DNA of 64,000 nt from Arthrobacter gandavensis (GTDB lineage Bacteria > Actinomycetota > Actinomycetes > Actinomycetales > Micrococcaceae). Shown here piece after piece: positions 5,512-7,231 of the stretch. Location of the stretch: the NCBI RefSeq assembly GCF_009192735.1, contig NZ_VTFU01000002.1:682001-746000 (forward strand), written 5' to 3'. A program made the position numbers and the translations under genes. Position 1 is the stretch's first letter; each line of letters begins with the position of its first letter. The notes under the pieces were generated by a model. It did no database searches. It was not told the origin of the DNA and worked only from the letters and a program-made list of their open reading frames with translations.

Positions 5512-5724
5512 CTACGCAGTGTCTGAGCGGCCGTCAATCACAGCATTTTTCAGCACCTGCTGAACCGCCGACTGCGGCACCCGGTACGAGCGTCCGAAAC
5601 GGACGGCAGGCAACTCCCCCGAATGGACCAGCCGGTACACGGTCATCTTGGACACGCGCATGACATCCGCGACCTCTGACACGGTCAGAAACCTCACGTC
5701 CGAGAAATTTCCCTCGTCTGCCAT
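5512..5724 (-). CDS. Small helix-turn-helix DNA-binding protein (excisionase/MerR-like fold)
   Basis: A 70-residue protein consisting almost entirely of one winged-helix domain: FLTVSEVADVMRVSKMTVYRLV is the HTH, and GELPAVRFGRSYRVPQSAV is the wing. This family is conserved next to bS22 in actinobacteria and resembles BldC and excisionase folds. No phage genes are nearby, so an excisionase role is unlikely; a chromosomal regulator is the better inference. ATG 5724 has AAGG just upstream. Targets are unknown. Confidence 0.88.
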   Translation of the reverse strand: MADEGNFSDVRFLTVSEVADVMRVSKMTVYRLVHSGELPAVRFGRSYRVPQSAVQQVLKNAVIDGRSDTA

Positions 5725-5879: not shown

Positions 5880-7016
5880 TCACCGGGCATCTTCGCGCCG
5901 CCGGCGGGCAGCTTTGGCCAGTGATGCCAGGACCTGCCCGCTGGTGTCCCACCCCATGCACGCATCGGTGATGCTCTGTCCGTAGACCAGGGATCCGGGG
6001 TTGGCTTCGTCCAGCTTTTGGGCACCGGCGACCAGGAAGCTTTCCAGCATTATTCCGGCCACGGCCGACGACGCCGCCCCGCCCTCTCCCAGACGGCCCG
6101 CCAGCTCCAGCGCCACCTCGGCCTGGCGGACGTGGTTCTTGCCGCTGTTCGCGTGGCTGGCGTCGATAACCAGCCGGGGGTTCAGGTTCCTGGCCGCGAG
6201 GGCATGGGTTGCCGCTGCGACGTCGGGGGCCGAGAAGTTTGGCCCGGCGGTTCCGCCGCGCAGAATCACGTGCGTGTCCGGATTGCCGGCGGTACTGACC
6301 ATTGATGCCCGGCCGCCGCCGTCGATTCCCAGGAAGGTCTGCGGTGCCGCAGCCGCCTGGCATGCGTCCAGGGCGACTTCCAGCGAGCCGTCGGTTCCGT
6401 TCTTGAAGCCCACCGGCATGGACAGTCCGGACACCAGCTGACGGTGGATCTGGCTTTCGGTGGTCCGCGCACCCACGGCACCCCAGCTCACCAGGTCCGC
6501 CAGGTACTGCGGGCTGATGGGCTCCAGGAATTCAGTGCCCACCGGCAGGCCCAGCTCGCCCGCGCTGAGGAGGAACCGGCGTGCCTCGCGCAGGCCGGCG
6601 GCGATGTCGTGGGATCCGTCGAGGCGGGGATCGTTGATCAGGCCCTTCCAGCCAACGGTGGTGCGCGGCTTCTCGAAGTAGGCGCGCAGCACAATCAGGA
6701 GGTCCTGCCGGTGCTCGCGGGCAGCAGCCGCCAGCTTCCGGGCGTACTCGATTCCGGCCGCCGAATCGTGGATGGAACAGGGACCGATAATCACCAGCAG
6801 CCGGTCATCAACACCGTTCAGGACGGCTCGGATGTCCGCCCGGGAACGCTCGATGTGCCGGGCCAGGGCCGGGGTCAGCGGCATTTCCCGGGCCAGCTGG
6901 ACCGGAGCGGGGAGGGTGCGGAAGCCGCTGACCCGAAGGTTCGAGGTGTTCGGCGCAGGGTGGGGAACACTGGGGGCAATGCCCGTCGATGCGGGTGCTC
7001 CGGAGGTAACAGTCAT
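5880..7016 (-). CDS. 3-deoxy-7-phosphoheptulonate (DAHP) synthase, class I
   Basis: A 378-residue class I DAHP synthase, which condenses phosphoenolpyruvate and erythrose-4-phosphate in the first step of the shikimate pathway. Seen motifs: LLVIIGPCSIHD, AYFEKPRTTVGWKG, GTEFLEPISPQYL, FKNGTDGS and VIDASHANSGK, all typical of the AroF/AroG/AroH family. Length is usual. ATG 7016 is chosen because the family homology begins shortly after it and GGGAAAG precedes it. The frame stays open to 7178, but that stretch overlaps an out-of-frame aromatic leader peptide (7138-7194), and the extension looks like leader RNA. Feedback specificity (Phe, Tyr or Trp) cannot be read from sequence. Confidence 0.95.
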   Translation of the reverse strand: MTVTSGAPASTGIAPSVPHPAPNTSNLRVSGFRTLPAPVQLAREMPLTPALARHIERSRADIRAVLNGVDDRLLVIIGPCSIHDSAAGIEYARKLAAAAREHRQDLLIVLRAYFEKPRTTVGWKGLINDPRLDGSHDIAAGLREARRFLLSAGELGLPVGTEFLEPISPQYLADLVSWGAVGARTTESQIHRQLVSGLSMPVGFKNGTDGSLEVALDACQAAAAPQTFLGIDGGGRASMVSTAGNPDTHVILRGGTAGPNFSAPDVAAATHALAARNLNPRLVIDASHANSGKNHVRQAEVALELAGRLGEGGAASSAVAGIMLESFLVAGAQKLDEANPGSLVYGQSITDACMGWDTSGQVLASLAKAARRRREDAR

Positions 7017-7124
7017 GGTCTTTCCCGTTCGGCTGTGGTGCGGACCGGCGGGAAGACTCATCAAAGCCCGCCGGATATGGCGAAGGGCAGGGAAATGATC
7101 CCCTGCCCCGGTGGCTCTGAAGGT
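7017..7124 (-). promoter_or_regulatory. Candidate attenuator region between the leader peptide and DAHP synthase
   Basis: Three stems can form in the leader RNA. Stem A: 7152-7163 (the end of the leader ORF) pairs with 7112-7123 over 12 bp with one G-U. Stem B: 7085-7092 with 7101-7108, 8 bp perfect. Stem C: 7045-7052 with 7067-7074, 8 bp perfect. The ribosome-binding GGGAAA (7021-7026) could also pair with TTTCCC inside stem B (7090-7095). No U-tract follows, so control of translation or Rho access is more likely than a classical terminator. Inference from base pairing only. Confidence 0.45.
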
Positions 7125-7137
7125 TGGCGTCAGCGTA

Positions 7138-7194
7138 TTACCGCGCAGGCTCCTCCAGAGCCAACGGAAAATACGCATACCAACGCTTTGTCAT
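7138..7194 (-). CDS. Aromatic-rich leader peptide of DAHP synthase
   Basis: An 18-residue ORF, MTKRWYAYFPLALEEPAR, ends 121 bases before the DAHP synthase start. Four of residues 5-9 are Trp, Tyr, Tyr and Phe, the end products of the pathway. Its ATG lies 7 bases after a TACGGT -10, so the transcript would begin at the ATG itself, as is usual for actinobacterial leader peptides. Leader-peptide control of a DAHP synthase gene is known in Corynebacterium glutamicum (aroR-aroF). Inferred role: ribosome stalling at the WYAYF codons when aromatic amino acids are scarce changes RNA folding downstream. Confidence 0.72.
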   Translation of the reverse strand: MTKRWYAYFPLALEEPAR

Positions 7195-7201
7195 GCCTCC
7201 G

Positions 7202-7231
7202 ACCGTAAACCCGGTCCGCGTCCGCTGGCAA
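7202..7231 (-). promoter_or_regulatory. Promoter of the aro leader and DAHP synthase
   Basis: On the minus strand TTGCCA (7226-7231) and TACGGT (7202-7207) are separated by 18 bases, a good sigma-70-type match. It begins about 23 bases downstream of the gdhA stop. Confidence 0.6.

Follow-up and report, generated by a model that had tools for sequence, protein, structure and literature searches.

The aroF gene of the window (the whole 64,000-nucleotide stretch of DNA analysed here) is preceded by a short leader open reading frame (ORF) and a series of RNA helices, and on sequence comparison this leader is homologous to AroR of Corynebacterium glutamicum and a member of an RNA switch family of many actinobacteria. 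The leader is proposed to be a leaderless, ribosome-stalling attenuator of the AroR type that, in this clade, would mask the aroF ribosome site, a reading whose chances we regard as evenly balanced. Comparison with relatives supports the conservation of the leader, the position of its -10-like site, the ORF and the helices P2, P3, P5 and P7, while translation of the ORF, ribosome stalling, the order of events, the direction of the response and its output are what we infer.

All features described below lie on the minus strand. The leader ORF (7138 to 7194, 18 codons, stop included) encodes MTKRWYAYFPLALEEPAR, as translation of the sequence confirmed for the initial annotation, and its ATG is 178 nt from the ATG of aroF. 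The candidate control codons TGG TAT GCG TAT TTT (Trp-Tyr-Ala-Tyr-Phe) occupy positions 7168 to 7182, with 8 nt from the start of the Phe codon to the GGCTCT of the strand designated b. A -10-like TACGGT (7202 to 7207) ends 7 nt 5' of the leader ATG, the spacing originally claimed, so that the transcript would be leaderless, and a -35-like TTGCCA (7226 to 7231), read from the sequence, lies 18 nt 5' of the -10; a strict sigma-70 scan of the region returned 0 sites and missed both. The sequence TANNNT was found 6 to 8 nt 5' of the leader start, the position that marks an AroR-type leader, in 88 of 88 leaders (65 at 7 nt) and in 16 of 1523 other start codons of the same loci, the leader starts having been chosen among in-frame candidates, which somewhat favours a match. 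Transcription probably starts at or very near the leader ATG; for S. lividans, 17 % of transcripts are given as leaderless (PMC8079986). The region could instead be an untranslated structured RNA that binds a ligand or a protein, the ORF being incidental, and strong structure and nucleotide-level conservation would suit this, but the constant spacing between the -10 and an in-frame start codon in 88 of 88 leaders, three-base indels within the ORF and the retention of aromatic codons in varied arrangements make it highly unlikely.

The predicted fold of the 181-nt leader has a z-score of -5.67, and 0 of 200 shuffles were as stable. Strand b (TGGCTCTGGAGG, 7152 to 7163), within the ORF, and strand d (CCTTCAGAGCCA, 7112 to 7123), after the stop codon, are recognised from the fold and from comparison as the two arms of P2, in which 7163-7152 pairs with 7123-7112 over 12 bp with one G.U pair; the pairing of the ORF end with a downstream segment was part of the initial annotation. 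Strand d is also the 5' arm of P5, of which strand g (GGCTTTGA, 7061 to 7068) is the 3' arm on the same kinds of evidence. The hairpin P3 (7084 to 7109) stands at the terminator position 2 nt from the end of P2, and P2 and P3 form together; P3 covaries, with 100 % of cells paired in 38 sequences, and is followed by TTCGCCATAT. There is no U-tract, as had been remarked, and a terminator scan of the window gave 0. The P4 hairpin (CCGGCGGG / CCCGCCGG, 7045 to 7074), predicted by folding and with a counterpart in another family that is 84.2 % paired, excludes P5 and P7. P7 (7018 to 7057), which covers the aroF ribosome site by pairing GTCTTCCCG (7057-7049) with CGGGAAAGAC (7027-7018), is indicated by the fold and by a swap test over all clades. 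P3, P4 and P7 account for the further hairpins before aroF, one able to mask the ribosome site, that had been noted. Folding also predicts a codon-run hairpin, P0/P1 (7123 to 7184), in which GTTGGT and GCGTATT pair with post-stop strands and which excludes P2; P0 pairs are disrupted in several genus members. The minimum-energy fold of the window leader consists of P0/P1, P5 (enclosing P3) and P7, with the ribosome site paired. A translation attenuator is expected to have two mutually exclusive helices, one of them covering the ribosome site, and P7 versus P4 is such a pair, with swap support over all clades and not inside the genus.

In the proposed mechanism, RNA polymerase would start at or beside the leader ATG and a ribosome would translate the leaderless ORF. 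Scarcity of charged tRNA for Phe (and Tyr or Trp) would stall the ribosome on the WYAYF run, just 5' of b, where it would block the hairpin P0/P1 formed by the codon run and b and let b pair with d in P2. Once P2 had formed, g would be free for P4, the 3' arm of P4 would be kept off the ribosome site, and aroF would be translated. With ample supply, the ribosome would clear the ORF, d would pair with g in P5, P4 would not form, and P7 would cover the aroF ribosome site. Starvation would turn aroF on, a direction kept from precedent, and the output in this clade would be mainly translational, with P3 standing where relatives have an intrinsic terminator.

The gene that would be controlled, aroF (5880 to 7016), encodes a class I DAHP synthase of 378 aa (TIGR00034, 1.6e-137; PF00793, 2.1e-82), and its ATG at 7016 agrees with the earlier statement that the ORF precedes a DAHP synthase. 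An aromatic-run ORF directly 5' of a class I DAHP synthase gene is the arrangement of the AroR type. The 5' neighbour of the locus is a gene for NADP glutamate dehydrogenase. A small excisionase-family HTH protein is encoded 3' of aroF (window 5512-5724), and sequence resembling this ORF was seen by eye downstream in several genus members. In the window's genus, aroF was matched in 12 of 29 genomes, and a 33-base leader core, allowing up to 3 mismatches, was found in 12 of 29, exactly the aroF-bearing ones; leader and aroF are both missing from the other 17, and a reversed-pattern control matched 0 of 29. By eye, the DNA from the leader ATG to the aroF ATG is far better conserved in the genus than the pre-promoter sequence. 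Since a type II DAHP synthase is present in 29 of 29 genus genomes, aroF appears to be an accessory isoenzyme accompanied by its own leader. In one genus member (G022, L012/L013) aroF is split into two overlapping matches with an internal TGA, which is either real or a sequencing error.

Among the best 80 aroF-like loci of public genomes, related aromatic leaders were found in 42 by regular expression, two of which (L067 and L068) are another sequence type, and four more were recognised by eye (L042, L053, L071 and L092). Named hosts include Arthrobacter, Sinomonas, Microbacterium, Paeniglutamicibacter, Mycobacterium, Mycolicibacterium, Dietzia and Actinoplanes. L067 and L068, from metagenome-assembled genomes labelled Actinobacteria and Rubrobacter, have, after their aromatic leaders, a hairpin that ends in a T-tract. 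Among these 80 loci, those from other phyla showed no related leader except at L031, and some actinobacterial loci (Nocardiopsis L048, Thermobifida L049) had none. The contig of L031, which bears an Arthrobacter-type leader with aroF, is labelled Sporosarcina beigongshangi and is possibly mislabelled or contaminated. Of 296 genomes sampled from the class, 58 had aroF at E <= 1e-60, and without the window's genome the regular expression found the leader at 37 of 57 aroF loci; in this set the sequence of L134 is masked with N, and Tyr...Phe leaders were seen by eye at L142 and L149. Per family, the leader was present in f1 (2/2), f4 (1/1), f8 (1/1), f10 (14/14), f26 (17/20) and f41 (2/2), and the regular expression found an aromatic leader at 0 of 17 aroF loci of family f23; other f23 genomes, unlike the f23 aroF loci, have the element before a chorismate mutase fusion. 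Family f10 has aroF at E <= 1e-40 in 101 of 121 genomes, and the regular expression found the leader at all of 20 loci hand-picked from 19 genera. Genus g147 has aroF in 34 of 131 genomes; the regular expression found the leader at 29 of 30 loci and the remaining one, L224, was recognised by eye, the ORF flagged there by the expression being a different one. A long gapped pattern had the wrong spacing (9 of 197 family genomes matched) and gives no prevalence figure. Rfam 15 gave no match at gathering score for the window leader and only two tRNAs on 13 relatives, and five weak Rfam matches were all below gathering.

The helices were compared on alignments and by an alignment-free test. P2 was paired in 98.7 % of cells in 38 sequences, in 99.5 % in 19 sequences of another group, with little variation, and in 97.6 % in the joint alignment A5 (58 of 81 distinct sequences), where four of its pairs changed on both sides. 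P3 was 99.6 % paired on the joint alignment and P5 96.7 % paired, and P4 in the f26-like leaders, at 84.2 %, had changes on both sides. Over P2 and P3 together, 12 of 21 pairs changed on both sides in the 58 sequences, and 0 of 500 shuffles were as high on four of five measures of covariation, the fifth (further pair types) being matched by 132 of 500. The part of the initial annotation that proposed a conserved, probably leaderless aromatic ORF with covarying stems before DAHP synthase is supported. In L045, strands b, d and g bear matching changes by eye. From group A, L060 and the identical copies L039, L109, L112 and L113 were dropped; from group B, L144 was dropped (missed by the pattern) and 54 of 55 were kept. 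A count of a small hairpin after P3 was dropped, as wrong bases were caught in two clades.

In the alignment-free test, pairing energies of own partners were set against those of partners swapped inside clades in 88 leaders, two duplicate group B rows included. P2 gave 1 of 2000, P5 0 of 2000 and the ribosome-site helix (P7 or P8) 0 of 2000, compared with 1214, 1914 and 1620 of 2000 for three control pairs; the region g+h used in the test contains the partners of both P7 and P8. By clade (of 2000), P2 gave 3 in A_other, 12 in f26-like and 202 in myco, P5 gave 0, 0 and 359, respectively, and the ribosome-site helix gave 1 in A_other, 1 in myco, 101 in f26-like and 549 in dietzia. An earlier version with 78 leaders had given a non-significant 823 of 2000 within clades for the ribosome-site helix, but several relatives' aroF starts were wrong in it, 14 leaders were without a start, and regions were empty; the 0 of 2000 was obtained after starts had been re-chosen by Shine-Dalgarno score and the regions redefined. 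L044, L053, L180 and L192 were left out of the test (d to start too short). Within-clade support for P2, P5 and P7 comes from other clades and none from the window's genus, where P2 is invariant, P5 gave 1848 of 2000 and the ribosome-site helix 1157 of 2000. That the ribosome-site helix varies inside this genus, yet own partners have no advantage, lowers the weight given to masking of the ribosome site and raises that of termination, discussed below. The pairing of b with a downstream strand gave 0 of 2000 in 48 further leaders, drawn from g147, from other genera of f10, from f41 and from Actinoplanes, and in some f10 leaders (for example L187, L189 and L190) the best partner of b lies beyond d. 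The pairing of a strand after the last aromatic codon with a post-stop strand beside P3, which characterises the AroR type, is found in b and d. A chance ORF in an intergenic spacer, in favour of which nothing was found, is so improbable as to be set aside, given the co-occurrence in the genus, the leaders in other families, the swap test, the -10 spacing and the covariation.

Equilibrium folding with a blocked ribosome footprint gave no clear switch, with weak and mixed counts. When a ribosome at the stop codon was compared with one stalled at Trp, masking of the ribosome site was stronger with the ribosome at the stop codon, the expected sense, in 8 leaders and weaker in 3 (>1 kcal/mol, n = 39); the corresponding numbers, again with n = 39, were 9 and 3 for a stall at the first Tyr, 10 and 5 at the second Tyr, and 17 and 14 at Phe. 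The 5' strand of P7 was freer by >0.1 with the ribosome at the stop codon than with a Phe stall in 21 of 88 leaders, with the reverse in 7 of 88, and the same comparison for a stall at the first aromatic codon gave 14 versus 5 of 88. With the ribosome at the stop codon P2 persisted (mean 8.7 versus 10.7 pairs), and P7 on average outweighed P4 in each of the four states modelled. A ribosome stalled at the second Tyr or at Phe occupies part of b and makes P2 weaker, the opposite of what a Trp stall does. Some Arthrobacter leaders also allow the ribosome-site strand to pair with g (P8), and in these leaders P5 would unmask, not mask, the ribosome site.

A less probable alternative, but a real contender, keeps the same leader and sensing and places the output in transcription termination, with P3 acting as an intrinsic terminator whose U-tract is poor, perhaps helped by a factor, and ribosome-site masking secondary. 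P3 is the best-kept hairpin, several relatives have U-rich tracts after it (for example TTTTTTGTTT), L189 and L191 have a hairpin at the position of d followed by T7 or T6, and C. glutamicum aroR has been described as transcription attenuation (PMC11802643). The window, however, has no terminator hairpin followed by a U-tract, P2 does not overlap P3 as an antiterminator would, P3 is present in all four modelled states, several f10 leaders are without P3 by eye, and the swap test over all clades supports the ribosome-site helix. Inspection by eye for an antiterminator formed by d and the 3' arm of P3 found no conserved pairing. Translational control through P7 is favoured here because the window has no U-tract and P2 leaves P3 intact.

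The codons of the run suggest which amino acids would be sensed. The last Phe codon is TTT in 87 of 88 leaders, and within the 5 codons before it Tyr is found in 88 of 88 and Trp in 74 of 88; among f26-like leaders, Trp is present in 9 of 22 and absent from 13 of 22. In 29 long mechanical ORFs of the window, TTT makes up 24 % of Phe codons and TAT 22 % of Tyr codons. Group B was selected with the Phe-to-b distance already fixed, so that this distance is tested only by 37 group A leaders and the later sets; it is 9 nt rather than 8 in L206 (by eye). Two of 30 g147 loci (L223 and L224) have Tyr in place of the last Phe. All Trp-containing leaders seen precede DAHP synthase genes, and many aroF leaders are also without Trp. 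The idea of a single sensor for Trp, Tyr and Phe is partly supported, the last aromatic codon of relatives being usually Phe and Tyr being frequent, but Trp is absent from many of them. Phe as the usual last aromatic residue fits the response reported in a review for C. glutamicum, in which aroF transcription rises under Phe limitation with no effect of Tyr (PMC11802643). A role for the peptide itself, as an arrest peptide or a nascent-chain sensor of free aromatic amino acids in place of tRNA charging, would agree with the near-invariant peptide of Micrococcaceae-type leaders; it is very unlikely, as the residues after the aromatic run differ greatly by clade and some leaders read the b motif in a different frame (GSG rather than APG), which implies that the RNA, not the peptide, is kept in those leaders.

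The same RNA was also found before other genes. The covariance model R1 was built from 58 leaders and matches the window copy, which was in the training set, at 7.0e-27. It matched 52 of 296 class genomes at E <= 0.01 (stricter filters) and 46 at E <= 1e-5, of which 35 have aroF directly after the match, many of these genomes having supplied training sequences, and 11 are outside the 58 aroF genomes. In these 11, a leader containing a TTT codon is preceded by TANNNT, at a distance of 7 nt in 10 cases and of 6 nt in L243. The next gene encodes DAHPS-like and chorismate mutase domains in 10 of the 11, the DAHPS match at L239 falling short of the Pfam cut-off; at L243 it encodes only a chorismate mutase domain. 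None of the 11 leaders contains Trp and in L235-L238 Phe is the sole aromatic residue, which would suit a pathway to Phe and Tyr only. The DAHPS part of the fusion at L235-L242, L244 and L245 is well below NCBIfam cut-offs (4 tested), and the ORF after the fusion gene in 7 of 10 loci is presumably dnaE, which it resembles by eye. Four weaker R1 matches (L246-L249) have no such leader by eye and look like chance. The aroF genomes outside f23 without an R1 match were G243, G307, G319, G330 and G478, in which leaders are present, and G421, which is masked.

Taken more widely, and with confidence somewhat short of even, AroR would be one branch of an ancient actinomycete RNA switch that has a leaderless upstream ORF, a Phe codon some 8 nt 5' of its switch strand as anchor, and exclusive helices P2 / P5 / P4 / P7 ending at the ribosome site, and that controls aroF and DAHPS-like/chorismate mutase genes, its output having been changed between translation control and intrinsic termination in different lineages. 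Of this family, one case from Corynebacterium has been described before. Aromatic synthesis begins with DAHP synthase, which is also an engineering target. If the proposal is true, many actinobacteria (among named loci Arthrobacter, Microbacterium, Mycobacterium, Dietzia, Actinoplanes) share one post-initiation control, and their leaders form a natural series in which attenuator output can be traced from terminator to ribosome-site masking.

An aroR attenuator of C. glutamicum aroF was reportedly described by Neshat et al. in 2014. It has been called a translational regulatory leader, relieving control by Phe and Tyr (PMC7356990), and the aroF leader is described with Phe-Tyr-Phe (PMC4046766). 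L206 contains an exact match to the published C. glutamicum aroR-replacement primer site, directly before MFAARFYFMSGSGAFPRQLAVSRAT (PMC7356990), and g147 is therefore taken as Corynebacterium and the window leader as an AroR homologue, the two forming one family. The earlier view that the window leader differs in kind from the Corynebacterium case is not supported, since L206 and its genus mates share the plan of a -10, an aromatic run, a GGCTCCGG strand and a complementary post-stop strand. The available passages of a 2005 survey report no conserved RNA structures before Phe or Tyr operons of actinobacteria (PMC1262725), the titles and abstract openings listed by literature searches gave no instance of the element outside Corynebacterium, and the available parts of PMC4833913 and PMC2965389 do not mention it.

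Like the window, AroR combines a class I DAHP synthase gene, an aromatic-run ORF with an adjoining -10, and GGCTCCGG with its complementary post-stop strand. The AroR relative L206 reads RFYF, lacking Trp, has a T6 tract after P3, and showed no P5 strand by eye, whereas the window has WYAYF, no U-tract, and P5, P4 and P7 extending to the ribosome site. The trp leaders of Corynebacterium and Streptomyces are likewise short ORFs with codons for the product amino acid, trpL of S. lividans being leaderless, but are described with poly-U terminators and an antiterminator that shares terminator strands, neither of which was seen in the window (PMC1262725, PMC8079986). Mycobacterial cysteine attenuators also have a leaderless upstream ORF and a proposed occlusion of the ribosome-binding site, and differ from the window, by description, in their polycysteine codons and the genes concerned (PMC13236596). 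The LEU element 5' of leuA in actinobacteria resembles the window leader in having a leader ORF, no obvious terminator and a strand able to pair with the Shine-Dalgarno sequence; there, Leu codons pair directly with that sequence at the base of a pseudoknot, whereas in the window a chain of exclusive helices is proposed (PMC1262725).
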